Assembly: GCA_001692895.1 (NCBI GenBank)
Contig: KV748207.1
Coordinates: forward strand, 868,001 to 932,000
DNA length: 64,000 nt
Direction of reading: 5' to 3'
Origin: Cenococcum geophilum 1.58
Lineage: Eukaryota > Ascomycota > Dothideomycetes > Gloniales > Gloniaceae
In this document: in pieces, positions 39,654-64,000 of the stretch
How the letters are laid out: each line of letters opens with the position of its first letter
Position numbering within the stretch: position 1 is the stretch's first letter
The notes under the pieces: generated by a model
What the model was told of the DNA's origin: nothing
Database searches by the model: none
The model's input: only the letters and a program-made list of their open reading frames with translations
Made by a program: the position numbers and the translations under genes

Positions 39654-41455
39654 ATGGAGGAATGGCAAGACTACCCAGAGGAGGATCGACACCATGTTGA
39701 GGCTTTGCTCAACAAATATTCTCTACAGACAATAGAGCACATGTTTCTCGAGGCCACAAAGTCTCGTTCGTCTTCACTTTCCATCCCTTCTCGCTTCTGC
39801 TGACTCATTTTGCAGGTCGCAATTCCGTCGCTTCCTTTTCAACCACATCCGGCTCATCAGTCTTCACGCACCGCCTATCCATTGGCTCAAGCCTCTATTC
39901 TTCTTCTAGCAGCGATTTTAATCCTTCACTATCATCGTCAGCATCGTCTCGTAGCCGTACTGCACAGCGAGCCGTTCATTATCCCCTCGGCTTGGATCCT
40001 AACCGTCCTGTGCCGCCATCTGCGCGACGCACACCATATGAATTTACTGCCTCCGTCGAACAAGCTTTCTCCGAAAATTCTCCTCTCAGTCAGGTTGATA
40101 ATGACTGTCATGAAGCCGGCCAGTCCTCTATTCATTCGAACGAGCGAGTCCTTTTCTGTACATTCTGTGCTGAACAGAACGTCAACAAGACGTTCGGGAC
40201 GAAGTCGGATTGGAAGAAACATGAAACAAGGATTCACGAGACTGGACAGGAATGGCCGTGTCCAACGCCGAACTGTTGTCTAGTCTTCGACCGCGACGCA
40301 GATTTTAGTCGGCATCATCAGCGCTCTCATCCTGGTCGGCCTCTTCCCCCTCTAAGTGACGTCAAGGTTCAGCTGTTGCCGAAGGGGGTCTTTGGGTGTG
40401 GCTTTGACAATTGCAAGACTTTGCTGTCTTCCTGGAACGATCGCTGTGATCACGTTGCAAAGCATATGAAGGACGGTATGAAAAGGACACAGTGGCGCTA
40501 TACGAACGTAATTCGAAATTTAATTCGTCAGGACAGTATTCGCGATGACTGGAAATTCCTATTTGTTACTTTTCGCGAACAGTTGAAGAAAGACGGATCT
40601 CAGCTTTGTTGGCACCCGCACAACACTAGAATCCTCAGACAAAAACTGGAATGCAGTGATTTTCGACCTAATCGTGACGACTTCTTGATGACGACACTGA
40701 AGCTAGGTTTAGATTTACCACCACCATCGGTTCCAGGCTCTTCTGAACAAGCTGTCGCATTGCCCGACGGTTTTGTAACGCCGAGCTTTGACTCAGTTCA
40801 GAATATCGATACGTTGTCTCCGGAGCAATTCAGGGTTATCCTTAGAGGTGGACCTTCAAATCAGCACTCTCGTTTCCGGCTTGACATTCCAAAATCTCCA
40901 CTCGAACATCCTCCCGAACAACTTCTACAGTCTCCACTTCCATCCCAAGGAATCACAGAAGGCCAAGAACCCTCATATGATCACACGATCGGGTTCAATT
41001 CCTCTCAAGATCGCATCAGTTTCATGGATGTAGTCGATACTGTTCCTGAATTAAGTCTATCTATGGAGTCGATGGACCGGATGTCTTCGTGTTTAGATTC
41101 TCCAATCCCTCATGACTCTACATACTACCCAGCATTTGTTGATCCCGGGAGGCCTACCAACCCGCTCATTGGACCTTTCCCGAACTACTTTGATTCAGCG
41201 CCGACAATCCAGGACTCTCCATTCTCTGCTCGTCCCTCCCCTGGACAGATCATAAAGAAGTCTCTAAGGAGGGCGAAAAGCAATTTCACCCTCAGACGAT
41301 CACAGCAGCTCGATCCTGCAACTGGGACAAACCACCCAGATCTTCCTGCGGAATATGAGGTTCCTCGTTCCACCGCTGGGCCGTCTCGATCGTATCCCCA
41401 TAATCGGCAAGATCTCATAATTGATCCTGTCCAGCAATTCAATTACCAAAACTAA
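39654..41455 (+). CDS. C2H2 zinc-finger protein (583 aa, two exons)
   Basis: Exon 1 is 39654-39765 and exon 2 is 39816-41455, joined across a 50-bp intron (GTTCGT, CTGAC branch, TGCAG) in phase 1. The larger frame lacks an ATG at its left end, and the first exon supplies MEEWQDYPEEDRHHVEALLN. The join reads EATKSRRNSVASF. Finger-like units start near residue 150: CTFCAEQN...W-x2-HETRIH, then CPTPNCCLVFDRDADFSRHH, then GCGFDNCKTLLSSWNDRCDH. The second half is Ser/Pro-rich with likely phosphosites. The layout matches a group of ascomycete C2H2 proteins of unknown targets; probably a nuclear transcription factor. The donor GTTCGT is weaker than usual, so exon 1 is slightly less certain than exon 2. 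Confidence 0.8.
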
Positions 41456-42870: not shown

Positions 42871-44460
42871 ATGTGGGGAATATCGCGCGTACTACTCTTC
42901 TCACAATACCTCTTCGCTATAACTCGAGCGACTCCCACTTATGATTATGTGTAAGTTTGCCACAAAATAGAAGCGATAGAGGAATTTTTCTGCTAATAAT
43001 CATAGTATCGTCGGAGGTGGTACGGCGGGGTTAACAATAGCAGCTCGCCTCACAGAAGATCCCGAGGTCTCAGTCATAGTTCTCGAAGCCGGAAATGACC
43101 ACTCAAACGACACCAACGTGCTCTCACCTGGTCTTTGTACTATTATGTATGGAGATCCAGAGTATGATTGGAATTATAGTACCGTGCCACAGGTATGTTC
43201 TAGTTTTGTGTACAAAATGTCAACAAAATATGCGACTTCCGAAAATTGCTAATGACTTAACAAGGTTTTTGCAAATGGTCAAGTCGTTGCCCACCCTCGT
43301 GGGAAACAACTGGGAGGGTCCAGTGCTATTAATCTCATGTTCTGGACCCATGCCTCCCGACGAGATATTGATAACTGGGGGAGTTTAGGAAATACGAATT
43401 GGTCGTGGGATGCCCTTCAACCTTATTACAAACGATCTGAAGAGTACATTGTGCCTTCCAAAAGAACCGAAAATGATCTCCAGACCGAGTATGTTGTTCC
43501 TGGTATCCATGGAATGAAAGGCCCTATCATAAACACCTTCCCGGACATCTACGGACCGCTGGATGAAGCATGGCCGCGCACTTATGAGAAACTCGGTCTT
43601 GCTGTACAATCAGATCCACGAGATGGGCTTGCATTGGGGGGCTACACCAATCTAATTAGTATGAATCCGAAGGGGAGGTCACGTAGCTATGCAGCAACGG
43701 CTTACTATCTGCCCGCATCGAAGCGCCCGAATCTGAAAGTCATTACAGGAGCTCTTGTTGAGAAATTTCTGCTGAAAAGGAGCTCTCGTGAAAATAGAGT
43801 GACCGCGATAGGGGCGCAGTATATAAAAACCACAACATCCTTCAAGGTTCAGGCCAAACGGGAAGTGGTTCTTTCCGCGGGCTCAATTGGCTCACCTCAT
43901 ATACTGGAGCTCTCGGGAATTGGCAATTCGGATTTGCTCTCCAAGTATGGTATCAACGTGGCAATTAGCAATGAAAATGTTGGAGAGAATCTACAGGATC
44001 ATATTTACGTTCCAATTGGGTAAGTCAATCCAGTTCTCCATAGCTTCAGTGAGTCAGTTCTAATAGGTGTAAAGCTATGAGGTTACCCCTGGGGTTCCCA
44101 CTCTAGACGACTTTAAAAACCCCACATACTTTAATAATGCTTACGAAGAATACATTACAAATGCAACCGGACCTTTGGCGACGACTGGTGCCAGCTCTGG
44201 GCTTCTTTCATGCCCGCAAATAGGTTGCACACACCTAGCTCCAGGAGAAGAGATTGGCGACCACATCAGTCCAGGCTTAGCAGAGCCAGTGATGTATAGA
44301 AACGTATTAGTTTTAATACGTTTGAAACGTTTCAGCTGTGCGGGTTCATATTAAACTAAACAAGGTTTAGTTTAAGATGTTTCAAGACCGTTTTATAAGT
44401 TTAGCTAATATTACGGAGTAAATACGAGTATCGTTACATGGTTGCTGGGTTAATAAGTTG

Positions 44461-44680
44461 TTAGCGACTCAGTCAATCGAGGCACGGATACGGCAAGAGG
44501 GACGCGTAAGCCTGTACGATTGGATTGTCTATAAACGAGGATCCAAAGCTAGAGAAAGGAAAGGAGAAGAATAGCAGCGCCGCTTAAAGTTTTATACGGT
44601 CCTTGAATCACGTGAGCTCATATAACTCTGCGTCTACTATAACGTCTACTATAATCTGCCGTTTTCCACCAGTGCCGTAA
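44461..44680 (+). repeat. Left 220-bp subterminal inverted repeat of the hAT element
   Basis: It begins TTAGCGACTC and matches the reverse complement of 47196-47415 nearly end to end, including GTACGATTGGATTGTCTATA. No target duplication abuts these repeats, so they are internal parts of the hAT element rather than ends of a nested one. Confidence 0.9.
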
Positions 44681-44928
44681 TATAAGTGCCGTATTGTGTA
44701 CGGGACACATAACGGTGCCGGAGCGTGTCTCCTGCCATATTCTGCCGTGTTTTACCATATTCTGCTAGGTTCTGCCAAGTTCTGCCAATGGGGCAGGTGG
44801 AATACGGTAGAGGTCGAGACGGTAGAAACAGGTGGGCATGTGCGAGGTGTTATGGGGTGGTCCCGTAACAGCTAACGAAAAGTTTTTCCCCTCTAAACCT
44901 TCTATCTTAGTACCCTTTTACCTCTACC

Positions 44929-47186
44929 ATGGCTTCTTAAGACGATACCTCTACAGTTTTAGACTTTACGGAGTATACACAAGATAAAGACGATAACTCC
45001 TACCTAGCATCCTAAGCTAGCACTACTGATAGCGACGAAATCCTCCGCCAAAAGAAGCCAAAGGTAAATGAAGAGCTATGGTCTTATACTCGTAAAGCAA
45101 AGGGTTCTGAGGAGGTAAGGAATAAGCATTACCAGCAGATATACTATTGTAAGTATTGCGCTAGCTATAAGGGCTCTCCGAATGCTAAAAGATTCCGTAC
45201 ACACCTTTTTAAAACCTATGATACACGCGTTAGTTCTACGCCTCTAGGTCTAATAAAGATAGCTTTTATTAATATAATTGCGGATATCCTTAGCGAGTAA
45301 AGGACTTTATAAGAGAAGCAGAACCTAATTAAAGAAAAGACCCTCTAAGCAGCTATCAAAGTACCTAAATTTAAAGAAGCCTGCGTACGGCTTATTACCG
45401 TACAAAACCTACCTTGCTCACTACTCGATTGGCCTAAATTTTGGGCTGTTATTCTATTAGTCAATTATATGGCTAAAGAGACTCTCAAATTTGCGCGACA
45501 AGACGTCCCAAAGCTCATTGAATTAACCTATATCCTCCACCGCGAAGAGCTTATTAAAAAGCTTAAGAACTCCCTCTCCTTAATACACTTTTTAATTGAT
45601 ATGTGGACATCGCCAGCAAAGATAGGGTTCTAAGTAATTGTGGTGCATTGGGTAGATGCAGAGACTCGCTGTATAGAGACTGCCTTGTTATTACTCAAAG
45701 AATTTAAGGGAGCTTATAGTGGTGAGGAGTAGGTAGAGGTCTTTCTTTAGGTTATAAGAGAGGTTAGTCTATAAGATTAACTCGGCTTCTTTACGTTAGA
45801 TAATTATGGCTTAAATAACCTTATGCTACGCCATATTGCAGAGGAGATTAAAGACTTTAACCCGGTTCTTTGTTAAATACGTTACTTTGGCCATAATCTT
45901 AATTATATCGCCTAAGCCTTTCTTTTCAGATCTATGGTAAAGTAAGGAGAGGGACAGAAGGATAAGGATAAGGCAATTGATATAGCTATTTAGGACATTA
46001 CTAAACTCTAAGATAAGCTTTAACGTTAAGGATTATAAAGTAAAGAAGATATTACTAAAGAGTTTTGTAAGCATGGTAGCCTTAGTAAACTCTATAACTG
46101 TAACGCCTTTTCTTGCTCTTCTTCTAGTCGATTTTAAGCTCTCCTTATAGTAGTTAGCTGAGTAATTTCTATAGATAATGACACGCGGTGGAACTCCTGG
46201 CTAGATGAGGTTACTGTCGCTTTATAGAAGTGTAAGGAATTTATATCCTGGACGGAAGATCACTAGTAGGAGCTTAGTAATGACGCTCTAATAAGAGACG
46301 ATTGGTAAGAGCTTAAAGATATTAAAGAAATCCTCTAACCTCTTAAGACGTATATAAAGAATACAGAAGGGCATACCGCTACGCTTTATATGACTTTTAA
46401 TAACATAGAATTTCTTATCCGCCACTTCACCTAAATATGAGAGAAATTTAAGGGTAACGCTTAAATAACTGCAAGGTTGATAGCAGCTTGGTATAAATTT
46501 AATAAGTACTATAAGCTTACTAATGATACGCCCGTTTATATGGCAGCAGCTCTTCTTTACCCTTAACTACGTGAAGCCTACCTTAAGAAAGTATGGTTAA
46601 CAAGGGAGCAGCAGAAGTGGATTAAGCCTACTATTACTAAGGTTCGAAACCTATGGAGGGACTATTTTAAGCCAGAGAGTGTATAATTAGTAGATCTCGA
46701 CTTAATCAAAGACCTAGCCGCACGATTTCTTGCTAAGATAACTATTTCAACGGCAGCAAGCAATAAATTTGATAACTTTATTAAGGTATATCTCTAATAA
46801 GCGCTTATTACTCTAGCTAACACCTATAGGGCGTATAAATCCCTATTGGTGAGTAATTACCTCTTAACTAGTGGCTAGAGCCTGTACGGCAACTAATCTA
46901 CCCTAACCTTACCCGAATGGCTGTTACTATCTTTAGTATCCCCCTAATGTCGGCTGGCCTAGAACGAGTGTTCTTAGGCGCTAAATATACAATTGTACCA
47001 GAGAGAGTAAGGCTTGGAGCGAAGATGTTGGAGATGGTAGAGTTATTAAAGAGCTGGGTCCGTATTATAAAGACAACAGGCAGGGCACCATTAAGTGGCG
47101 TATTTACAAATAGCTGCTTTATGGATAAGGCTTTAAAGGTATTAGAAGGGGAAGGCGATAGCGATAAGGTAATTATCACGGTTTAA
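44929..47186 (+). pseudogene. hAT transposase remnant
   Basis: The frame starts at ATG 44929 and is broken by many stop codons and at least one shift of frame. Near the N terminus (about 45070-45240) a BED-type zinc finger is visible: YYCKYCASYKG followed by KRFRTHLFKTYD. The C-terminal 90 codons (46917-47186) are open and hold the hAT dimerisation segment SAGLERVFLGAKYTIVPERV and MLEMVELLKSWVR. The stops are mostly TAA and TAG where CAA/CAG codons would be expected, consistent with RIP. Confidence 0.88.
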
Positions 47187-47195
47187 AGCTATTTG

Positions 47196-47415
47196 TTACA
47201 GCGCTGGTAGAAAATGGTGGATTATGGTAGACGTTATAGTAGACGCAGAGTCACGTAAGCTTACGTGACTTGAGGACCGCATAAAACTTCGAGCAGCGCT
47301 GCTATTCTTCTCCTTTTCTTTCTCTAGCTTTGGATCCTCGTTTATAGACAATCCAATCGTACAGGCTTGCGCGTCCCTCTTGCCGTGCTCATGCCTCGAT
47401 TAACCGAGTCGCTAA
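47196..47415 (-). repeat. Right 220-bp subterminal inverted repeat of the hAT element
   Basis: This is the inverted copy of 44461-44680. Just outside it, at 47421-47452, are two tandem 16-bp units of TTGCCCTGGAAACC(T/G)G, which are not present at the left side. Confidence 0.9.
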
Positions 47416-47710
47416 TACTATTGCCCTGGAAACCTGTTGCCCTGGAAACCGGCCGCCCCTAGCTACCCTTTATTCTGTATATAGACCTGAAACGTATTAA
47501 AAGTCTGATATGAAACGGGCTGTTTTGTTTTAATAAACTTAAACATGTATTAGTTTCGGTTTCAGGTGTTTCTATATAACACTGAGCAGAGCAATACAAA
47601 CTTCTTACCAAATATTTCCAGACTGAAGCTGTCACACAAGAGCTGACGGTAACCGGCGGTATGAGCCCGCAGTATGTCAATGACACTATCAAACTATTCA
47701 CAACGACTAC

Positions 47711-47972
47711 TGTCGACCTGAATCGAAGTTCCTTACTACCATCGTAATACTGTCTGACGACCTAGATCGTCTATACGAACTATGTCTCAGTTGTCTCGTA
47801 TCTTGAGCTCGTATGTCTTATCGAACGTCTCATTACCTGTTTCTCTTAACTATGACCTACTACATGACGACGTCGTCGTTATTGTATTTGGGACCTACCT
47901 AATGTATATAAGAGAGCTTCTAGAGCCCTCTTTAATAAAACAGAGTTCTCATTTCTAATCGTCCGTTTAACA
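47711..47972 (+). repeat. 5' LTR of Copia fossil A (262 bp)
   Basis: It is a direct copy of 59451-59714, starting TGT and ending ACA, and the two differ mainly by transitions. The sequence just inside, GTTATAAGCC, is shared with the start of the third Copia element at 60341 and marks the primer-binding region. Confidence 0.93.
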
Positions 47973-49717
47973 GTTATAAGCCTAGGCCGTCTACTACATC
48001 ATCTTTAATTCCAAAGCCTTTATTCCCATTAATTTTAATTATTATCTTAATTGTAGATAACTACCTATAATAACTTCTCAACAAGAAATCCCTCCCATTA
48101 TTATATCATCCGTTATCCTTATAAGCCTAAATAATTAGGATAAATGGATTAAGGTTATTAAGTTAAAAGCGAATAATAATCGTCTCTAGAAGTATATTAA
48201 CCTATTAATACCTAAGACTGATCTGCTATAGCTTAAAGAACCTATTTATGCCTTATCTAAAGATGCTAATAGCTAGGGGAAGATGAAGCTCGCGGACCTA
48301 GATAAGAAGGAGAAGGAGGAGCTCTATATGCTTAAAGCCGACTATAGGGATAATATAAAGCTATATAGAAAACAGCTATTAGCTCTTAATACGTTGCGTA
48401 GCTATATCCTAAGCTCTATCTTATATACCTACCTTATCTATATATTTAAATGCACCACTACCTATAACGTCTTAGTATCTATTAAGAAGAGAATTACTCC
48501 GACTAACTACGCCTAAAAGCTTTAAATAGCTACTCAATATATAAGGCTTAAGAAGGTGCCTTAGAACTAAAACTTTAAGATCTAGTTATAAGAGTAAAAG
48601 AAGGTATATATAGAGTGCAAGAAGCAAGCTCTACCTAAGGTAGATAGTAATTATTTAGTAAAAGACTTCGTATATATAGTTAAATTAATTATACTAAGCT
48701 AGTTAGAATATTGGAAGAATAAGCTTAATAAGCGTAAGTAGGAGAAAAAGACGCTTCCTACCTTCTTTAAACTAGTTAAAATATACTAAAACCACCGTTA
48801 TATAGACCTCGCCTAGAAGGGCAAAACCCTATAAGGAAGATCCTTTAGAGTTACCTTTAAAGATAAGTTACTAAATTTAAAGCCTAAATTAAAGCCTTAA
48901 TTGTTAGTAGATAAGTAGAAGAAGGAAAGGCAACTGCCGCTAGAGTACCTATATGGAAAGCGTTACTACTTTAACAAATGCTAGTATATTATAGAGTTAA
49001 TTCCTTACCTATTATGGTTTAAACTAAGTAACAAAATTCAGAAGAAGGTAGATAAGAAGATTACTAATATAACGCCCGAAATTAAGGCTTATATTAAGCA
49101 AATTAAAAAGGATAATTAAGCTAATAAGAAGGACGATTAAGCTAATAAAAAGCCAAAGGAAGGTAGTAATTAGAGCTTATAAGGGCCTACTAGAAACTTT
49201 ATAGTTTATTATATAGGATCTAATAATATAACTTCTAATTATAAGCTTTGTAATAGTATAATTCTTAACTTAGAAACTAGCCTATATATCTTTAACAATA
49301 GAGCTAGGTTTATTAGCGATATTAAGCCTATAATAGAACGCGTAGGCTATAGTATAGCTATAGTCACAATTAATAACCTAAAAGGGAAGAGATAGATATA
49401 GCTCTTAGGAGCAGCCTTTATACTAGGCTTCTATACTAACTTAGTATATCTTAATAAGCTTAATAATAAGGGAGTCTACTAGAATAATAAAGAGAACACT
49501 CTCTTCTATAGCGACAACAAGACGTACGCCTACTGTGGCCGCCACTATAGTTAAAACACCATTAAATATAATAAGCCAAAAAGTAACTTACCTAAGGCTT
49601 TATTTGCGACTCAATTAAAGCCAATAAAGTATTTATTAAAGCCTCTACTAAATTAGGCAGAAGGCTATATATAGTACTAGTAAATAGGCTATATAGAAAA
49701 AGATGTAATTAAGTAAC

Positions 49718-50161
49718 TGTAACGTGGCCCGCCTCTACGTCGCCATACGGCCAAAAAGACTAAGAGTGCTTGCGAACTTGTCGCAAGCGCGGCGGGACCT
49801 AATATATATACTCTTACAATTGCCCTCTCCTCTGCGCGCTCGTCCCCGAGCGCGCGCAGGGATTCCTCTATGCACCCATTCCGGGCCACAGGGATTAAAC
49901 GCCAAGAGTATCACTATATTAGTTAGTCCCCAGTAACGTAAGCGATCGGACTTAGCCGACCCGCCTTATCGCATAGATGTATATTAGACTATACTAGAGC
50001 GAAGTAACCGATAGGGATCGAACCCATAATACTTGGCCCCAGTAAGTTCGCAAGCACAATTGTAACGTGGCCCGCCTCCACGTCGCCATACGGCTAAAAA
50101 GACTGAGAGTGCTTGCGAACTTGTCGCAAGCGCGGCGGGACCTAATATATATACTCTTATA
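49718..50161. mobile_element. TRIM-like miniature LTR element (444 bp) inside Copia fossil A
   Basis: Two 101-bp direct terminal repeats (49718-49818 and 50061-50161) start TGTAACGTGG. They are nearly identical, and the left one ends TTACA. The flanks 49713-49717 and 50162-50166 are both GTAAC, a perfect 5-bp duplication. The 242-bp internal part has no coding capacity, so it fits a terminal-repeat retrotransposon in miniature, mobilised by another element. It contains a strong GC-rich hairpin (about 49837-49862). On its minus strand, at 50011-50027, a 17-nt tRNA T-arm look-alike has a canonical TTCGATC loop. The GC-rich repeats contrast with the RIP-altered host element. Confidence 0.9.
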
Positions 50162-52677
50162 GTAACTACCTTAGTTAATAACGGGCGCGATTATAAAAGG
50201 CCTAATAATAGTAGAATATAAATTATATGGAGTAAGTAAAGCTTATAAGGTGGTATCTAGAAGACCTCTAACTTAGTCACTAGTTCCTTTCTATAGAATC
50301 TACCTTAATTTAATACCTGGAATAGTTGTATTTAATAGTAATAAGTATACGGTATACTTCCTTAATAACGCAACGCGAATAAATAAGGTAGAGATAATGG
50401 CTAAGAAGTTGTCCCTTACCTAAATTGTTATTAAATATTACAATATTATTAAACGACAATATGGCTTTAAGGTAGCTATTATCTATATAAATAGAGAAAT
50501 ATCTCTTATAGGCAAATTTAAGGAATGGGCAGCTAAATAAGGAATTAGTATTAAAAGATTAGTACCTAATACTTAATCACAGAACGGTCCAGCGGAATAA
50601 TCTAGGGGGGTAATTATATAGAAGGCTTGGTGTATAAGAATTAAGGCTTATCTATTAAAGGAGCTATATCCTAAAGTCTATAAAGCAGCTACCTATCTAC
50701 TTAATTAAACGCCTAGTAAAAGACTTGGGTAGTAGATACCTTTTAAAAGAATCTAGTTAGCTATGGGTATATTACCACTAAAACTATATATAGGCCACCT
50801 ATAAGTCTACGGCTGTAGGGCCTACCCTCTTAAGTATAATATTTTACGCCTAAATAAGCTCGCGTTAAGGGCCTATATAGGATATCTAGTAGGATATAAT
50901 TTAACGAATATATTCCAAATCTACATTCCTAGTTAAAAGAAGGTTATAAGAACCAGAGACGTAAAGTTTAATAAGCGGTTACTTTATAATAACTTATAGC
51001 CAGATTTAGCGAATATACTCTAAGTTAAAACTAACTAAATATTAGAAATTATTAATGTCTATTAAATATAGGATCTTTAAGATAAATTAGAATTGTTATC
51101 TAATAAAAGCGATAAGACTTAAGACGAGATTTAAGTTAATACTAAAGGGAGATAATAGGTAGAATCTAGTAGAAATAAGGAAGAGCCTAATATTAAAAGT
51201 AGTAAGTAACAAGATTTAAGCTCCAAAAATAACTTAGCTTTAGGGCTTCCTACCCTAAATAAGATACTAGAACCTAACTTACTGGAGCCTCTACTACCAT
51301 CCTTAAATACCTTAGTAAAAAAGCCGCATTATATCCTAGTTCCGACTAATAAAGCTAAGCTAAAAAAGAAGATTAATAGCAATATAGGAGAGCAAAATAT
51401 AGTTAAAGGAAAGAGACTTAAAGGACAATTAAAGATCTATATAGGCTTTCTTGCTAATATCACTAACCAGAGCCTTCTAGCTTAAAAATTAGCCTTTAAT
51501 ATAGGGCTTATATTTCACAAAAAGCTATACCGTAATTAGCTCCCACCGCCGCCTAGGAATTAAAAGGAGCTTTAAAGATATTAATATAAGGAAGAATTCG
51601 CGGCTGCTGCTTAGAAGAAGTATATAGACCTTTAAAATTGAGGAACGTTTTAAGTCGTTAACGAGATAATCTATATTAAAACCGTACCTATTATCTAGGT
51701 ATTTATATATAAAACTAATATTAACGGATATCTAACGAGATTTAAAGCTTATCTTTACGTATAAGGTAATCTGCAAGAGTTAGTTTATAAGAACACCTAT
51801 ACCGCAACTTTAGCAGTAAGATCGTTTAGAGCCTTAATAGCTATTATTGTAATATTTAACCTAGACTGCTAGTAAGGCAACGCTATTAATATATTTGTAA
51901 ATAGTATAATTAACGAGGTTGTATACGTCAAGTATTTAGATAAATTTTTAGTTAAGGGTAAGTGCCTACTTCTCCAAAGAGCGCTTTACGGATTAAGGCG
52001 ATTACCTCTGCTATAGCACGGTAACTTAACAACAACGCTAAAAAAAGGAAGGCTTAAAGCTAGTAGCGGAGGAACCTTACCTATATCACAATAATTGGCT
52101 AATAGTCTTCTTCTATATTAACAATATTATAGCTATATTTAGGAAGAAAGATCTACTTAAGCTTTAAACCTTTAAGGAGCACCTTATAAGAAAGTATAAG
52201 ATAAAGAACCTAGGTAACCTTACCTGGTTCTTAAATTTTTAAATTATCCGTAATAGAAAGAATAGGAAGCTCTAGCTTAGCTAGGATTCCTATATTAATA
52301 AAATTATAATAAGCTTTAAAGTTAAAGATTATCGCAAAATATATATACTAATAGGTATTAAGGAACTTAAGCCTAATCTAGAGCAAGCCTCTAAGTAGGA
52401 TACCTACGCCTATTAGAGGAAAGTTGGATCTATACTTTATATAGCTAATATTACTTATCTAGATATAGTAAAAACAGTAAGTAAGCTATTAGAATTCTTA
52501 TAAAATCCGTTACTAATTTACGACGCAGCTGCTATAAGGGCAATTGCCTACCTTAATTAAACTAAAACTCTTATAATTAAGTACTTAAAGGAGAATATAA
52601 TAAACCAGATCTTTATAAGGGCTAGTAATATATTATTTAGCGATAACCTAGTAAGTAGAAAGAGTATAGAAGGTTAT

Positions 52678-52847
52678 TATCGGTATACTCGCTTTATTAA
52701 CGTGCACGAATATCACTTATAGTGGTACGTATGCGGTATTGAAGTTAGTAGTTAATTGTTGTCTAGAAGAAAGGGGTTGCTCTAAGGTTAGATAGTTAGT
52801 CTTACTTTATAGTCCTATAACTACGTCACGTAATTAATATTCCAACA
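52678..52847 (-). repeat. LTR of Copia fossil B (left copy, 170 bp)
   Basis: This is a direct copy of 58729-58898. The right copy ends CCGACA, and the element's ends are imperfect inverted TGTCGG/CCGACA-type termini. It is the 3' LTR in the element's own orientation. Confidence 0.92.
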
Positions 52848-55800
52848 CTAGAGCAACTCTAAAAAGAAGGCTAATCTACACTCCAAAGTTAAGTCTTCTA
52901 GACTACTCGTAATATATACGCGATAGTGACTTTCTGCCGAATTCTACCGTATTACCGAATTCTGCCAAATTCTGCCGAACCTAACTTCTGCTAACCAATT
53001 AGGATTTTCCATCCCCGGGATAGAAAATCGCTATTAGCTTGCTTAGTACTAGCGCCAACACTAAACCAAAGTTAAATCCGTTCGCTTAACCCACCCTACA
53101 GCTCGTAATTCAACTTAATTCGTGTTAATAAGCTATAATAGTGCCGTATAGGGCTTACCCTTTATTATAGCGTCCGTAGAGTTAGTATCTCCATTAATCT
53201 ACTTAACTTTAGTAATCTATCTTCGTTTATAAGCTTAGCAAAGGCATATTATATTAATTATTAAGCGTTTCTCTTACGTAGTTCCTAGTTGGATAAGATA
53301 GTTATATAAAGACTTTAAATTAGTATAGAGAATAAGTAGTAAGTTAACCTATAAGACCTTATCTAGCGTGGATTTAATTACAGCGCCTATGTTGAAACTA
53401 TATGCTATGCCGTATAACTCTAAGGCTAATACACTCCTAGTAACTCTTTTACACTTAATTAAGGACTAGTAGACAATATTTACCTTATTTAAGGCGTCTG
53501 CTAGTATAAGTACGTAGCCGATTTGCGAAGATAAGTCCTTATTATTAGTAAAGGAAGCGTCTGTAAATACTAGGAGTTATAAGGTATTAACGTCTAGCTT
53601 AATAAACTTTAGGCCTCTATTTACGTTCTTAATCTACTAGCTTAATTGCTTATTAAGACTCTTTATATTATCTTTAACTAGGTTAATTACCTAGGTAGTA
53701 AAGGATAGGTTAAATAAGGCCTTTAGCTGACAGACTAAGGCAATATAGGCTCCTCTAGCGCGTTAAGCGATATACTAGTCCTTTAGCATAAGTAGGCCAC
53801 GCGTAACTCCTCTAAAGCTAGTGCTGTCTACTAGCGTAGTATTAACCACACTAAGGTTCTTACACTAGCGCTTTTACGTTAGCGTAATACTTCTATCTTA
53901 TATTAATTAAATAAGTCCTTTGTTAAACTTAATTAGTATATTAGCGGTTAATTGCTCTCGCTCTTTAGCCATAAATTTAGCCTTATATAGTTCGCTTTAT
54001 TCAGCCTCTATAAAGGTATTATCTGCGAGGAATAGTATATTATTAGTTTATAAGCCGACAATTCTAAAAGGCTTGTCGCTGTAGAGCAAGTAAGGGTTAT
54101 ACGTGGACTAGTCTATTCGCAGCTAATTAACATAGTATAAATAGTAGGTTTTAAACCAGTAGTTTCCAGCTTTAGGTACTCCGTAAAGTGGCTTTATAAC
54201 CTTTAAAACGGAGTCTATATTAATTCCTAATTATTTATTTAGCTTATGTGGTAGTCGTATATAGAACTTGCGGTTTAGGTTTATAGTAGACTAGACATAG
54301 GCTTATGAGATGTCTTGGAGGTAGAGTTATATCTATAGTAGCATAGCAGCGATATAGAGAATCAGCCGCTAGCTAACTTGTTAAATTATTAGTGACTAAG
54401 TAAGGACCAGCTCTTTCTCTAAGTCATTATAGGCCTATATAACGAGTCGTAATTTCTTAAAGGCTTTATTAGTTCCCTTATTCTTAATCTTATTAATAAA
54501 CTATAAATTAAAGAGTCTGACCCCCTTTGGTATATCGTGTAATTTAATAATCTTAAAGACGCCTTTCTTAAGTAGGCCTATGACCTCCTTTTGTTATAAA
54601 GCGCTAAATTAGGTGTTACTATCGTTCTATAAGTAAATAGTAGTGCCAGCCGTATCTACGGTATCATCGTCCTGTAAGTAAATAGCGATATCTATAATAT
54701 CCGCAATATCCGCAATATCACTCGTAAAAGTGTCTATATCTATCGTAGCATCTATAACAGTTGTGTCTGCAACAGCTATAAGCAATAGGTATTTACGGGG
54801 GCGACCTCTACCTTACTTTAGCGGTAGCTATAGTTTAGCCTTAGGTAACGATTAAGGTTTAGCTAGTAAAGGTACTAGTTTATCTAATTTAGCAGACTTT
54901 TATGGTTCGACTAGGTCTTATAGGTCTAGTAGGTAAGGTTTTACAACTATAGAGCGGAAGGTCATAGGCCTATTTAGTAGCTTTACGGTATAGGTCTTAC
55001 TGTTAACGGTAAGTAGTATATATAGTCCGTCCCAATAACTACTTTAGCTAGTATTGCCTTCTCTCTAGACTAAGACAGGCGAACTAGGTAGAAGGCCATA
55101 AATAGCGTTAGTTTGTGGTCTATTTTATATATTAAGAGCGTTAGCAATCTATTATTCAGCTTATAGCTTCTAGATTTCCACCATTGCTTTCTTAATAGCC
55201 GCAGCTCGTTATATAACTAAAGGTAATAGTGCGTCCAATTTAACCATTTAGGGGTAGGCTCCAAAGACTAGAAGTGTAGGGACTAGGCCTTTTGGGCCGG
55301 CCGTGTCATTAATAGCTTTAAAGGCCATTTATAGGGCCATCTCCTTACTAATTTCAGGGATTTCAGTCGTAATAATTTAGTAGGCTTATTATAGCGGGCC
55401 GTGGTAGCGTTCTACCATTCTAATGGAATTATATAATTCGACTAGAACCAACTTTATAGTTGCTCCTATAGTAGCTATATAGTGCTTAAACTCCTTACTA
55501 ACAAAGTTCTTCTTAGCGTCTATAGTAATTAAGTTTAGTAGTCCTAAATAGCTGTCAATCTAGCATATTTAAAGAATATCCTAAGTATACTTGGCGCTAA
55601 TATCTCGTAGCTATCTACTAGCTTAAAATTAAGTTGCTTCGTCGACTATATATAGTAGGGGGGAGCCGCTAATATATATAATGTTAACGATAATATTATA
55701 ATTAAAATTAACGTCGTCTTATAAGGTAAAGTAAAATCTACCTAGGGGTCTACTAAACTTCTAGCAGTGGTGGTAGAGTCTAGTTAGTTCTTCAATAGCA

Positions 55801-58211
55801 GATCTGTTAGTGTTATAGCCGTAGCCAGCCTTATTAAGAAGCTTTTACAGTCTATTAACTAACGGGTAACCAAATTAACAGTATAGACGTCGTAGTTCTA
55901 CGTCAGTTAAGTAGTAAGGGTTTATATTAAAAGACTTAACTAAATAAGACTGTAGGGAGAAGCTCTATAGGAGAAATAGGTGGCCAAATTATCTAACTAC
56001 TAGCACCTTTTTAGTGCGAGTAATAATGACGTCTTTTAGGTTATTGTATTTAATATAGAGTTTATCTATATCTGCTAAGCAAAGTAGGAAAGGAGTATCT
56101 GCTTTAATAATATAGAATTATACCTTGCCTATAGGGCTGTTAACGTCTATAGTTTTAATAAACGTAGAGGCTCCAATCCCAAATTAGATAGTTACTTAGC
56201 CCTTAGTTAAGATATTAAGACTTACGGACTTATCTACGGCCTATAGAGCTTAGAATTAACTATAGCCAGCTATAGACTTATATAAAGCACCCGTATTAAT
56301 TATAATTCCCATAAAGACCGTCAAGGTGTATCGTGACGCTGTGGCTGTAGCCGTACTATAGGCAAATGGGTCGGTCTCCGTGTAAGGTTCCGTAGTAGAC
56401 TCCGTAGTAAGTTCTAAAGCTGTAAGCAGGTGTGTACAAGCCTTACTAGCTAGCTCTACGCTTATAGAGGTTGCTTCCTCCGTAGTAAGTATTCTAAAAG
56501 TAGTAATATAGGTAGAACTATCGTTAGGTTCTCCAGCATCGCTCCTAGAGTCGTCAGCGTCTTATATATAGGCTTTAAAGTCTAAATCATTATCTTTATC
56601 TCTTTCGCAAGCAGCAACGTATTACTTAAAGTGGTTGTTAAAGTTGCCCTTATTGCGGCCCTTAATATTAATAAAGCGTCTTTTATAGTCATCTCTAGAC
56701 CAATTACGCTCCTCCTTTATATATTTCCATAAACGGCAGTCCTCCTTCTTGCAGATATAGCACTTGGCCTTTAGTCTACCATTAGTTCTATAAGAGCAAT
56801 TACTACTATAGCAATTAGTGTTTCGGTCTCGACTTTAGTCATTCTAATAGTAGCGTCAATCTATAAAAAAGGCTTAGTAAGACGGTCTCATTAAGGCCTA
56901 TAAGGGGTGTTCTTTTTCCTATATAATAATAGAGGATTATAGTTTACTAATTAACTAAGAGAGGTCTTCTAAGGGGTTAGAGACAGTAATACGGCATACT
57001 AGTACTCCCTGGCAAGCAGTAACTAACTTATTTATAAGAATGCGGTTTATACGGAAGTCTAGGTATAGTCTATAACGTTGCTTTAGCAGTTTATTTATAA
57101 GCAGTTAGAAGTTCTAATAGATTAACTTATTAGGGTTCTCGTCCATAACTTCTTAAAGGGTTATACTATTCTACTCTATAAGGTTCTTACGGTAGTATTC
57201 TAGCCCTTTAAAAAACTGTCGCATATAGTTATAGGCTTTAGTAAAAGGTCTTAACTTAAGGTTACTATTATAGTAGTGGTCCTAAGTAAGCCCTTTTAGT
57301 ATACTAGGGAATGCTACTATATAGCCTTCTAGTGGCAAGCCAGATCTCTTGTAGATATTATAGAAGATAGTTAACTTAAAGTTAAAGCTATTACTAACTC
57401 CATTATACTTTTAGTTATCTATGTAGATCTTTATAATTATAGCCACCTCTTTACTATATCTAGGTCCTTGTCTAGGTCCTTACTCCACACTAGGCATAGC
57501 TAGTTTAGGTAGTATATATATGTGTAGCTGCTACGGTTGCTGCGGCTGCTATAGCTGCTATAGTTGCTGTTCTCTTAGCCATAGCAGTTAGTTAATAAGA
57601 GCATAGATTTAGTTATAATTGGAGGATTAAGGACTAGGAGGAGTAGTAGGGGTAGTAGGGGCAGCGACCGGAGTAGCTAGTGGTATAGTAATTGGAGTAG
57701 CTGGCGGTATAGCGATTGGAGTAGCTAGTAGTACAGCGAGCTTATTTAGGGTCGTATTAAGTCGGTCTTACAGAGCCACAGTAATCATTGGCTTAATATT
57801 ATTAAGGGCTAGACCAATCTCTTCGTCTATCCATTTGTGAAACTCTTCTTTATTAGTAATATCCGTTAGTACCTTGCCAAGGGAGTATCTCTTATCTTGC
57901 TTAATAATATATACTCCTCTCTTAACTAGGTATTTACGGATTCCCATTTTAGTATTAGATCGTACTTATATAAAGATCTCTAGTATAAAGTCCTTAAAGT
58001 CTTCCTAAAACACTATCCACAATAAAGAGTCTGTAAGGTTGGATTGTGTGTATAGGTACATCTTAGTCTCCATATACTCCGCTAGATTGTTATCTATAGC
58101 CGTCTCTAAGTCGATTCCGTTGCCGTATTTAGCAATTCTTTCCTTCTAGTCAATTTCTATATTGTTATATTTTCGTGTATATTTAGTTTAAGGTTAAGTA
58201 GAGGTTCTAGA

Positions 58212-58319
58212 GGTTTAAGTTTAAGGTTAAGGTTTAAGGTTAGGGTTAAGGTTGAGGTTAAGGTTGAGGTTAAGGGTTATATTGAGGCCAGGGGTGTAGT
58301 TAAGGTTAAGGTTAAGGGT
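58212..58319. repeat. Telomere-like TTAAGG/TTAGGG array in Copia fossil B
   Basis: About a dozen degenerate 6-bp units, mostly GGTTAA with some GGTTGA and one TTAGGG, lie near the 5' end of fossil B's gag. The units resemble fungal telomere repeats but are imperfect and lie inside a transposon. Confidence 0.8.
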
Positions 58320-58390
58320 GTAAAGGTATATACGTATCCTATTAACAAATTTACAGTTCTTAGACACTATAGACAATTCTTAGCAGAGAT

Positions 58391-58690
58391 ATGGTCCTCT
58401 AGGCGATTTAACGCGTTAATAGTTAAGTTAATACGTGGTTTTAAGCTTTAAGGGTCCTCTAGGCGATCTAGCGTATTAGCGAGCTAATACGTGGTCTTAA
58501 GCTTTAAGGATAACGTAGCTCTCTCTAAGTAAAGATATGGTTCTCTAGGCAATCTAATACATTAGCAGTTAAGCTAATACGTAGTTTTAAGCTTTAAGGG
58601 TAATATAGTTTTCTCCTTTAACTAAAATAGGGCGATAGCTCTGCGATCTAACGCGTTAGTAGTTAAGCTAATATGTGGTTTTAAGCTTTG
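58391..58690. repeat. Tandem repeats (about four units) in the leader of Copia fossil B
   Basis: Units share CTCTAGGCGATCTAACGCG and a TTAAGCTTTAAGG end, spaced about 56-90 bp apart. They lie between the 5' LTR of the minus-strand element and its gag. Confidence 0.85.
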
Positions 58691-58728
58691 CTATTACGTA
58701 TTTCCTAATCTATACGTCTACTGATTAG

Positions 58729-58898
58729 TATCGGTATACTTGCTTTATCAACGTGCACAAATATCACTTATAGTAGTACGTATGCGGTGTTGAAGTTAGT
58801 AGTTAATTGTTGTCTAGAAGAAAGGGGTTGCTCTAAGGTTAGACAGTTAGTCTCGCTTCATAGTCCCGTGACTACATCACGTGATTAATGTTCCGACA
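58729..58898 (-). repeat. LTR of Copia fossil B (right copy, 170 bp; 5' LTR of the element)
   Basis: It matches 52678-52847 over its whole length and ends ATGTTCCGACA directly before the GTTAT duplication. Confidence 0.92.
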
Positions 58899-59450
58899 GT
58901 TATTTATTTACCTTATTTAGAGGGCTAATTAACTAGCAATTTATAAAGTAGAAGTTAGTAATAAAATTAAGCATAAAAGCAGAGCTCCTAGCCCTATTAC
59001 ATACAGCTACTAAGTTAATTTAGTAGTAGCGATTCTTTAAAGAAATTGGATTTAACCCTAATAAGAAGCAAATAATATATTGTAATAACCTGTAAATAAT
59101 TTAACTACTTACTAAAAGCAACATAGAGCTTAATACTAAGCTTTAATACGTTAATATCTATTACTACTAGCTCCGCTAGGAAGTTTATAAAGAAAGCATT
59201 AATATTAAATAGGTACCTACTATAGATATAATAGCAAACGGCCTAATAAAGGCTCTGCCTTATTAAAAGCATAAGATATTTATTTAGTAATTAAACCTCG
59301 TTAATATTAAGGATCTAATTTAATTTAATTTAAATAATATTTAGGTAAGGTAAATATATAGAGGATTTCCTTTAACTTAACACCAAATTGCTATTATAAC
59401 TTTTTAGTATTTTCTACAGCAGCCTAAAAGGCTCTATATAGCTGGGGGGG

Positions 59451-59714
59451 TGTATTAACCTGAATCGAAGTTCCTTACTACTATTGTAATACTGTTTGAC
59501 GACCTAGATCGTCTATACGAACTATGTCTTAGTTGTCTCGTATCTTAAGCTCGTATGTCTTATTAAACGTCTCATTACCTATTTCTCTTAACTATGACCT
59601 ACTACATGACGACGTCGTCGTCATTGTATTTGGGACCTACCTGATGTATATAAGAGAGCTTCTAGAGCCCTCTTTAATAAAACAGAGTTCTCATTCCTGA
59701 TCGTCCGTTCAACA
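59451..59714 (+). repeat. 3' LTR of Copia fossil A (264 bp)
   Basis: This direct copy of 47711-47972 is preceded by a seven-G polypurine tract. It is followed by the ACTAC target duplication and then the GMC reading frame. Confidence 0.93.
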
Positions 59715-60169
59715 ACTACCGACGGAAACTTCTTTACCATGCTCGGCGTGCTGGAGCACCCTTTCTCCCGAGGTTCCGTACATATCCAATCCACCGATCC
59801 AGCGACATATCCGCAAATTGATCCGCGGTATCTATCACACCCGTTCGATCTCAAGGTCCTCAGCAAAATTGCACTGCATCTCCAGGAGGTCGCAAAAACC
59901 GCGCCCTTGAGCAATCTCCTCAAAGGAAATGGGACAGTCTACCAGCCGGGTTATTTCAAGCTAAACGACAGCAATGTAGACGATTGGGTGAGGCAGTACC
60001 TTCAAAGCGAGTATCATCCAGCGGGCACCTGTTCAATGATGCCGCGGGATATGGGAGGGGTTGTGGATGCAAAATTTAAAGTATACGGTGCGGAGAATTT
60101 AAGGGTGATTGAGTGTCTTTCCTTTACTTCCGAGAGGCAATTTGCAGACGCTGGTATTGTCAGATAATC

Positions 60170-60340
60170 TGTATTCTCTGGTGGCGTAGACCGTGCACGA
60201 GTCACGTGCACGGGGCACCTGCATTGTAAATCTCTTCATCGTAGCTCGAGGGCCCCAGGTCATCAAATCAACCTCAAGACAAGATCATTAATCAATCAAC
60301 CCATTTCATCAATGAATAGCTCTATATGAGTTATCTAACA
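60170..60340 (+). repeat. Candidate 5' LTR of Copia fossil C
   Basis: The segment starts TGTATTCTCTGG three bases after the last GMC stop and ends ATCTAACA. It lies directly before GTTATAAGCC, the same internal start seen after the LTR of fossil A. Its right edge is therefore firm, but the left edge is only a guess because the partner LTR lies beyond the window. It contains a perfect palindrome with 9-bp arms (CCGTGCACG/CGTGCACGG) at 60191-60213. Confidence 0.5.
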
Positions 60341-63300
60341 GTTATAAGCCCGGTCCGCCGACTTAAGAAGCTATTCAGCTATTACTCAATTATTTGAAGA
60401 AATTCTACCTCATCGTCAGACTCTGACCCCTCATCGTCAAGGACGCAGACCCTGACAGAAATTCTACCTCAATCGTCGCAGGACGATCCTGACAACAAGG
60501 ACGCTCTTGACGACAAGGACGCTCCTGACGACAAGGACGCTCCTGACGACAAGGACGATCCTGACGACAAAATACCATCTCAATTCCTCCTTTGCCTATC
60601 AGTCAAATGACTCCACCGTTAAGTTCGTTAATTACGATCATCCTTAATAAGCCAGAAGACTGGGAACAATGGCTATAGCAGCTCCGAGCCCTCGTAAATT
60701 AGCAAATTTAGGCCCACGTTAACCCAGCCACAGAAGCACCTTAAGAAGGTCTACTTATGAAACCACCTCATCTAAAGGTTATAGATTTTAATGAGAATGC
60801 AACCTTATATATACAGCTCTCGATAAATCAACAGAAAGCGTATAAGAATAGTAGATAATACTACGACTAGGATATAAAGTATTTCCTAAGATAGGAAGAT
60901 CATCTTTAATAGATCCGTACCTAAATTACGTCCACAGTATCAACTTAGAAGAAGCTACTGCTCGACCCTTCCCTTATAGTTAAGGAATGGCTAACTCGGT
61001 TAAAAGAAGACACTAAGCCCTTAAGGAACTTTATAATAAGGAAGGTACAGCTATAATATACAGATTCGCTTAGGGGTCTTAAGCAGGCAAAAATTACCTA
61101 ATAGCTTGACCAATGGGAGTATATAATAAAGATGGCTGAGAAGTATAATCTTCTATAAATAACTAACGGGATCTAGCTAATGGACCTTATAAATGCAATA
61201 CGACCTATAAGCGAAACCTATTTTGTTCTATATATAAAGCAGGCAGATAATACTAAAAAGGCTTACTTATTAGGATATTGTAAAGTAGTAATAGAGCTAT
61301 AAGAAGCATTCCAAAACCTTTCTAAAGCCATACCTATAACGGTAAGAGGGAGTGCATTTAACGTAGACTTTATAGGAAGATCTAAAGAGGATACCTCCGC
61401 TACTAAAGGTCTAAAAGGGAAAAGGAAAAGCTTATCTTATAGCCAAAAAAGGGCAGGGACAAATTTGATTAAAGAAGAGATATCTTCTTCTAAAAGGTTA
61501 AAGAACCTTAAATGCCCGGCATATAATATAAGGGGGTATACTCTTCCTAACTGTTAGTACCTATTTAAGTGTAAAAGGCCTAAGGGATTTAAAGCCGTAG
61601 ATATATATATAAAAAGGGTGCTTATAAAGGTAAAGCAGGATAAGGATCTAGCTGCCTAAGTAAAATAACTTAAGCTTAAGGAAACAAATGCTAATAAAGC
61701 TTAATAACGACAGGATGAGAGTTAAAAAGTTAAGATTAAGGGAGAAGCTAATATAATATTCCTAGAATTGTATTATACTAGTTAACTCCATCTACTAAAG
61801 CTATTAACTATTTTTAACTTAGGAACCACTTTCTATATCTTTAATAACCTCTCTCGTTTTTATAATTTTAAGAAAGCTTTAAGATATAAATATATTATTG
61901 CAGGCAGCTTAAAAGTCCCTATACTAGGCTACGGTAATATTACTATCTAAGTTATAAAACCAGATAAGAGTAAGGGAAGCCTACGTCTTAAGGACGTTGC
62001 CTTTTATACGGACTTTAATACAAATCTAGTGTTATTCCGTTTACTTTAAAAATAAGGGTACTACTAGGATAATAAAGGAGATAACAATCTTCTTGTTTGA
62101 AAGGATAACACAATCCTATATTAAATGGAAGAACGTCACGGATAATAGACTATTAAATACGTCCAATTAGGAAACTTAAAATCCGCATTTAATATTAGCC
62201 GTTTAACGCGCCGTTAACAGAAGCGGATATCGTTAAGAGACCTTTATCTAGATTTAAAAGGTAATACACGACTATAGCATCTACGTCTAGGTTATTTAGG
62301 ACCTATAAGCCTTTATTATCTAGGTTTTAACACCCTAGGAGTTAAGCTTTAAGGCCTAAAGATAACGGAATGTTAACATTACAGTCTCGCCAAAATTAAG
62401 CGTTAGGTCTTAAAAAGGTTCTTAGAATAGAAAATTAATAAACCCTATCTTAACCTCTATATTGACTAGACTAACCTTAAGAAAGCGTATACCGGATTTA
62501 TACGAGTTATACTTATCTATAACACCTACTTAGGAAGATCCTTCCTGTACTTTATAACGACGCATAGTAAGAAAAAGGAGACACTATAAATGCTTAAAGA
62601 TTTTATCTAGTGGATTCGTCTAAGGTATAACCTTAAGGTTAATACTATTAGATCAGACAACGAGCTAGGGAGAAGGAGAACCCTTAAATAGCTACGGATT
62701 TAAGGGATTATATTTAAGCCTTTAGCGCTATATACCTAAGCTTAGAATAGTACCGCCAAACGCTTAGGGGGTATAATTATTGAGAGAGTATAAATAATGA
62801 GAATTGCTGCTAATCTACTATATAACCTATGGAACGAGATAGTTAACTATACAGTCTACCTTTAAGATTGAACGCTACGGGAAAGCAACGGTTAGATATC
62901 GCCATATAAGAGGTTCTATACCTTCCTAGCTAATAGGAGATTAAGAAAGCCGCAACTAGCGTACCTAAAAGCCTACGGCTATAGGGCATACGCGATAACG
63001 TCGGACGCCTAGCTAAGGAAGAAAAGGCTAAGTAAGCTAGATCCACGAGCCTATATTGGCTATCTTATTAGCTATAACTCTACTAATATCTATAGGATCT
63101 GGATCCTATATAAGGGTATCGTCATCTCTATAAGGGATATTATCTTTAATAAAAAGATGTTCTTTAACGGTAAGCAAACGGATATCTTAGAGAACTTATA
63201 CGCTAAATTAGACACGCTAATTAAGAAGATTTAACTTCCTAATACCCTAACTAAGAATAAGGTTCTTTTGGAAGATAATAAAGAAGTATTTAAACCGTTA

Positions 63301-64000
63301 ATTTAAGAGGAAGACAACGACGTTAATGAGCCTGTTTAAACCTTTAATAAGTTAGCCGATCTTAAGCTTATAAGAGCTCTTAAAGATATATATTATATGC
63401 CACCTCTAACAGAAGAAGACAAAGAATCTCCATATGCCTTTTATATTAAGTACCCTATAAGGTTAGATATACCAGATTAGGACATTATCCAATAAAAAGG
63501 AGACGGGTTTAATACTTAGGGGGTGTTTAACGACTCGGTTAAAGACTTATTTAAGGAAGCCTGCGATAATAGGTTTAAAGACTTTATTACTAAAAGGATT
63601 ACATTAGCCTATTACGGCGCCTTCTTAGTAGGACGGAAGTTTAACCTTAATAGTCGACTTAATAATAGTAAGCTAAAATTAGGTAGAATACGCGATATTA
63701 GATTATATAGGAAGAACTTACCTTTGCTACCTTAGTTAATCTAAGACCTTAATACGCACCCTCTTTAAGATTAGTTCTAAGAGGCTTAATAAGCCTACCT
63801 CCAATCTTATTATTAAATAAGGTTATTTTAAGAAATAGATAAGAAGTATATAAGGGGATAGCAGGTCCTCAGCTTAATGTAGATCTTTATCTATAAGACG
63901 GATAAGTATAGGTTTCTCCAAAAATGCAAGGCACGCTTAGTAGTTTACGGAAATTAATAGGCCCTAGGAGACCTACCTACGAGAGCTACTATATTAGCTA
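60341..64000 (+). mobile_element. Copia LTR retrotransposon fossil C (plus strand), cut by the window edge
   Basis: Ty1/Copia family. Order: leader with an 18-bp repeat array, gag (about 60.6-61.6 kb), zinc-knuckle region (about 61.5), protease (about 61.8-62.05), integrase (about 62.2-63.0) and the start of reverse transcriptase (about 63.4 kb to the edge). It is strongly AT-rich with many stops, so it is heavily broken like the other copies. It is related to fossil A by its shared internal start but differs in gag. At least 3.7 kb is present; the rest and the 3' LTR lie outside the window. Confidence 0.88.
60481..60570 (+). repeat. Five tandem 18-bp units in the leader/gag start of Copia fossil C
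   Basis: The unit GGACGCTCCTGACGACAA is repeated five times exactly end to end with few changes. One frame reads as an acidic (DAPDDK)n repeat. The array has kept many CpA sites and is GC-rich beside strongly AT-shifted sequence. Confidence 0.9.

Follow-up and report, generated by a model that had tools for sequence, protein, structure and literature searches.

The 64,000-nucleotide window analysed here (C32:868001-932000) lies on a 1.95-Mb contig of a 177.2-Mb genome assembled in 162 contigs. It holds a gene for a GMC oxidoreductase whose last exon is broken up by mobile elements. Seven elements are present in all: three of them (a hAT element, Copia A and Copia B) sit directly in exon 4, and the other four are nested within those (Table 1). 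Each of the seven is bounded by an exact pair of target-site duplications (TSDs). The retroelement and hAT domains lie on the expected strands, and the counted stretches of hAT, Copia A, Copia C and Copia B have at least 48 stops in every frame. An earlier note on this DNA had described a complete stack of four elements with all TSDs intact. Those four and their TSDs prove exact to the base, but the stack is one of seven elements and the nest was incomplete without Copia B and two solo long terminal repeats (LTRs) in the hAT element. Positions written as L002:n belong to the sequence directly past the end of the window (3' side).

Table 1. Coordinates of the host gene pieces and of the elements they enclose (TIR, terminal inverted repeat; TRIM, terminal-repeat retrotransposon in miniature).
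Feature	Position	Strand	Remarks
GMC oxidoreductase gene, exons 1-3 and first piece of exon 4	42871-44286	+	exons 42871-42950, 43006-43192, 43265-44019, 44075-44286; N-terminal domain
hAT TSD, copy 1	44279-44286	.	AGCAGAGC; host sequence
hAT element, 3298 bp	44287-47584	+	TIR CAGTGWTRTATAGAAAC; TSD and TIRs; carries two solo LTRs
Solo LTR 1, 224 bp	44459-44682	-	TSD TAAGT 44454-44458 and 44683-44687
Solo LTR 2, 224 bp	47194-47417	+	TSD CTATT 47189-47193 and 47418-47422
hAT TSD, copy 2	47585-47592	.	AGCAGAGC
GMC exon 4, middle piece	47593-47710	+	open in host frame; ends with Copia A TSD
Copia A, 12004 bp with both inserts	47711-59714	+	LTRs 47711-47972 and 59451-59714; TG..CA ends; TSD ACTAC 47706-47710 and 59715-59719
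TRIM-like element, 444 bp	49718-50161	-	101-bp terminal direct repeats; TSD GTAAC 49713-49717 and 50162-50166
Copia C, 6221 bp	52678-58898	-	LTRs 52678-52847 and 58729-58898; TSD GTTAT 52673-52677 and 58899-58903
GMC exon 4, third piece	59715-60157	+	starts with ACTAC (5 bases); ends with Copia B TSD GGTAT (5 bases)
Copia B	60158-64000 in the window, to equivalent position 65740	+	5' LTR 60158-60340; extends 1740 bp past the window

The host gene and its three direct insertions

The gene has both domains of the GMC family, and they lie on separate gene pieces: PF00732 (GMC_oxred_N) matches 43256-44023 (E 1.1e-37) and PF05199 (GMC_oxred_C) matches the third piece of exon 4 (E 1.1e-25). The closest solved structure is that of an aryl-alcohol oxidase (3fim/5oc1, E 4e-39). 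The top other match in the genome, a paralogue, is 32% identical, and the gene therefore looks single-copy; at that identity the paralogue was rejected as a proxy for an empty site. The introns are of the GT..AG type, and a frame without a stop runs across the six gene pieces within the window.

The host frame continues over all three direct insertions. At the hAT junction GLAE joins QYKLL, at the Copia A junction the reading is FTTTTDGNFF, and across Copia B the residues NLQTL before the insertion join the GMC C-terminus VYALAERAADWIKEDARGL and its stop after it. That stop is at L002:1801 (equivalent position 65801), and the nest reaches that far. The stop at 60167, taken earlier for the end of the gene, lies in the 5' LTR of Copia B, and the GMC C-terminus follows that element. 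It had also been proposed that excision restores the host frame. This stands for the hAT and Copia A junctions, over which the frame runs, but an intact frame is barred by a second lesion, a frameshift at about 60105-60117. It falls between RVIE and VFPLLPRG, just upstream of Copia B, and coincides with no insertion junction. The coding pieces total 1846 bases, which is not divisible by three. With the frameshift in place, excising all inserts would therefore still give no open frame to the end of the gene.

Copia B, the third direct insertion, begins with TGTCAGATAATC at 60158 and has its 3' LTR at L002:1558-1740. The TSD GGTAT flanks both ends, the 3' copy being at L002:1741-1745. The element matches SH3_retrovirus (E 4e-12), with Pol_BBD below the cut-off, and no match to RVT_2 was found within 60500-64000, the part searched. 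Its LTR and leader have at least 40 matches in the genome, as has its interior. Right after the 5' LTR, Copia B (60341-60370) and Copia A (47973-48002) share GTTATAAGCC, possibly a common primer binding site.

The earlier note took the two insertions 126 bp apart as a sign of a hot spot. The distance is correct (47585-47710, one copy of the hAT TSD included); the hot spot does not follow from it. A true integration hot spot, with insertion into exon 4 favoured by chromatin or sequence, would suit the fact that all three direct insertions are in that exon, which makes up 824 of the 1846 coding bases (chance 0.090). When triples are placed at random in the 1846-base coding sequence, however, the minimum gap is at most 126 bp in 36% of the simulated trials (13% for random pairs), and the insertions into this gene can be explained without a hot spot. 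The three inserts, moreover, belong to separate families and differ in their TSDs, and a gene already dead would, in a genome so rich in repeats, be expected to gather insertions without any attraction. We thus consider a hot spot unlikely. No evidence was found for the order in which hAT, Copia A and Copia B arrived, which for the first two agrees with the earlier statement that they are independent of each other.

Elements nested in Copia A and in the hAT element

Copia A has the features of a Ty1/Copia element: TG..CA LTRs, a 5-bp TSD, and reverse transcriptase after integrase. Its SH3_retrovirus match (E 7.4e-14, above the cut-off) is located before RVT_2. The order of insertion can be read from other copies of the element. 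The stretch between its two inserts gave 41 matches (its own included; the best 40 of 341 candidates), from which 10 other copies were sampled in short regions. At the TRIM site none of the 10 has an insert and all stay colinear; eight read GTAAC and two GCAAC. The Copia C site is likewise empty and colinear in 10 of 10, with GTTAT in eight and transition variants in two. One of the 10 alignments is gapped elsewhere at the TRIM site, and one at the Copia C site ends 41 bases before the end of the query. Copia A is older than both of its inserts, as had been claimed.

TRIMs are recognized by short LTRs, a short total length, the lack of a coding domain, a 5-bp TSD and many copies. The 444-bp element (strand assigned from its purine-rich side) has all of these, with no open frame of 120 amino acids or more. 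It is a real mobile family: there are at least 40 copies, its own included (the best 40 of 413 candidates), and a perfect 5-bp TSD flanks 27 of the 30 that were cut out, again including its own. In the short LTR element, the 5-bp TSD and the non-coding size it resembles Helenus and other TRIMs, but it lacks the tRNA-derived LTR sequence of Helenus. A tRNA-like TRIM of the Helenus kind was rejected: ARAGORN calls a tRNA in one of 30 copies (none of the 29 others), and Rfam gives no match. The single call, a tRNA-Cys at 50003-50097 in the copy of the window, is mostly in the interior and extends 37 bases into one terminal repeat. In composition the element stands out, having 51% G+C within an element of about 31-32% G+C. 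Its RNA is predicted to fold better than shuffled sequences (z -5.0), and a GGTTCGA B-box-like motif is present in 21 of the 30 copies.

Copia C, on the opposite strand, appears to be GalEa-like, judging from the sequence next to its 5' LTR. In fungal GalEa elements a conserved hairpin site replaces the primer binding site, and has an A/A mismatch (nucleotide 7 / nucleotide 3) and a spacer of 12-41 bp (PMC5445492). Right after the 5' LTR of Copia C, and preceded by the final A of that LTR, is CTAATCAGT, within the GalEa-like hairpin sequence 58705-58728. The two 9-mers of this hairpin are similar to CHSeq1 and CHSeq2 as defined in that paper. The second is near-complementary to the first, with the same A/A mismatch between nucleotide 7 and nucleotide 3 and one further departure, explicable by a C-to-T change. 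The spacer is 6 nt, against the 12-41 bp stated there for GalEa. At 58190-58320, close to where the 5' end of Copia C lies, is a degenerate short repeat resembling AAGGTT/TTAGGG; it adjoins 85-nt direct repeats at 58378-58702.

The hAT element has the 8-bp TSD AGCAGAGC on both sides, short TIRs (CAGTGATGTATAGAAAC / CAGTGTTATATAGAAAC) and the hAT dimerisation domain PF05699 (Dimer_Tnp_hAT; E 1.2e-9, 38.3 bits vs. a cut-off of 21.4, with stops read as X). Within it are two 224-bp repeats of one family in opposite orientations, and these are solo LTRs (the strand of the first was assigned by the side on which full-length copies have their G-run). At other loci of the genome the repeat is found in direct pairs. 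Five such loci were read, with a spacing of 5.66-5.70 kb at four and 7.49 kb at the fifth. All five are full-length loci with both LTRs; the 5-bp TSD is exact at four and differs at two positions at the fifth. The near-symmetrical placement of the two 220-nt arms, their inverted orientation and their 88% complementarity could instead mark them as internal terminal repeats of hAT or of one inner element. This is hard to believe of arms that each have their own, different 5-bp duplication, that are found as direct pairs at other loci, and that are both missing from five other hAT copies read (of the seven main-body copies listed, other than the one on contig C36 described below).

The region 44732-44871 of the hAT element was not counted as an eighth element resembling a miniature inverted-repeat transposable element. 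It matches many loci, and the two copies read, each with only 20-30 bases of flank, have no inverted repeat at their ends; the copy at L085 has one internal 15-nt inverted pair. The region appears to be sequence common to several loci, in which a TTCTGCC motif recurs with a 10-bp period. In its first part (44732-44787, the left region of hAT) there are four TTCTGCC-like units in a 10-bp register, also found at L084 and L085. By eye, a similar motif is present at about 52930-52990 in Copia C.

A related hAT copy (L016/L017, C36:1078910-1095644) has its own 8-bp TSD, GCTGCGCC, and is in two parts, with some 13 kb of other sequence between them. On its right side lies a solo LTR that agrees in family and orientation with the right-hand one in the window but is offset by one base: the TSD register is CTATT in the window and TATTG/TATTA on C36. 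The right subterminal region of the window's element is found at these two places only. No left solo LTR is seen on C36, but the left region there does not align and so cannot be counted as an empty site. The kinship of the two copies is read from their ends, because the body of the C36 copy is no closer (83-87% identity) than those of other copies (84-85%). If the right-hand LTR was an old insertion carried along by hAT, two 1-bp indels are required, precisely at both LTR edges. Independent insertion costs no indel, just one G-to-A change in one TSD copy. It is possible, if somewhat doubtful, that the family hit nearly the same point of hAT twice independently, one base apart, which would imply a sharp integration preference. 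The LTR sequences are uninformative in this regard: there are two transversions between the right-hand LTRs of C32 and C36, and two also between the right-hand LTR of C36 and the left-hand LTR of C32.

Repeat-induced point mutation and LTR divergence

For the two long host pieces the composite index of repeat-induced point mutation (RIP) comes to -0.36 and -0.75; the 113-bp middle piece scores 0.00, and the stretch that holds the GMC tail scores -0.13. All measured elements and segments other than the LTRs of Copia B fall between 0.50 and 1.41. Identity within LTR pairs is 94.3% for Copia A, 90.6% for Copia C, 97.3% for Copia B and 96.0% for the TRIM. All 40 differences across the four pairs are transitions, with no transversion, and 33 are in the CpA/TpG context typical of RIP. 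Copia C differs at 16 of 170 sites and Copia A at 15 of 262, which is not a significant difference (p = 0.18). Thus Copia C, although younger than Copia A, is no less diverged, and therefore LTR divergence here seems to reflect RIP more than age and to be a poor clock. Care with LTR clocks has been advised also on account of gene conversion and diversification in Podospora (PMC10787394). Where RIP acts, the locus gives modest reason for care in taking ages from LTR divergence; the order of nesting yields a sequence of events that an LTR clock cannot.

A history of the locus

Given the observed anatomy, TSDs, frames and empty sites at both Copia A inserts, the best explanation is, very probably, that a GMC gene in a background of RIP-type mutation was inactivated and collected seven mobile elements. 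The gene, aryl-alcohol-oxidase-like and apparently single-copy, would have been inactivated in a transposon-rich filamentous fungus, its function being lost before or with the first insertion. Three separate insertions into the last exon would have occurred, hAT by cut-and-paste, with its 8-bp TSD, and the elements Copia A and Copia B by retrotransposition, with TSDs of 5 bp. The TRIM and the opposite-strand, GalEa-like Copia C would later have entered Copia A. The hAT element would have taken up an LTR element of about 5.9 kb twice, both copies being presumably cut down to solo LTRs when their two LTRs recombined. C-to-T change of the RIP type would have degraded the long elements while barely affecting the host exons.

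Several observations weigh against this account. The RVT_2 match of Copia A (E 8.6e-7) is in two pieces of 29.2 and 26.9 bits, below the Pfam cut-off of 31.6, and that of Copia C (E 4.4e-6, minus strand) is likewise under the curated cut-off. The LTRs of Copia B have no RIP signature (-0.87 and -0.75), against 0.88 for the whole element. Low copy number was rejected as the cause, given the number of matches to both the LTR with leader and the interior. The insertions into the GMC gene itself are read from TSDs and frame, and the contiguity of the junctions is that of the assembly. Many-copy repeats are prone to misassembly, but it is extremely improbable that unrelated repeats were wrongly joined at these junctions, in view of the seven exact TSD pairs, the continuous host frame, the colinear empty sites and a contig of such length in an assembly of so few contigs.

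In abundance of Copia elements and RIP-like composition the genome analysed here matches Copia-rich, RIP-bearing ascomycete genomes such as that of Cenococcum geophilum. That genome is given as 177.57 Mb, with many Copia elements and with RIP qualified by "probably" (PMC5445492), and as 178 Mb with 81% repeats (PMC5023957); the words "GMC", "nested", "RIP" and "insertion" are absent from the main text of the latter. The literature on transposons and RIP in fungi is large. The locus records clearly, and in well-preserved form, how transposons build up in a genome rich in repeats, but the biology is ordinary. Upstream of the nest, 39701-41455 is an intact open frame of 584 amino acids, in which the spacing of C and H residues is, by eye, zinc-finger-like.

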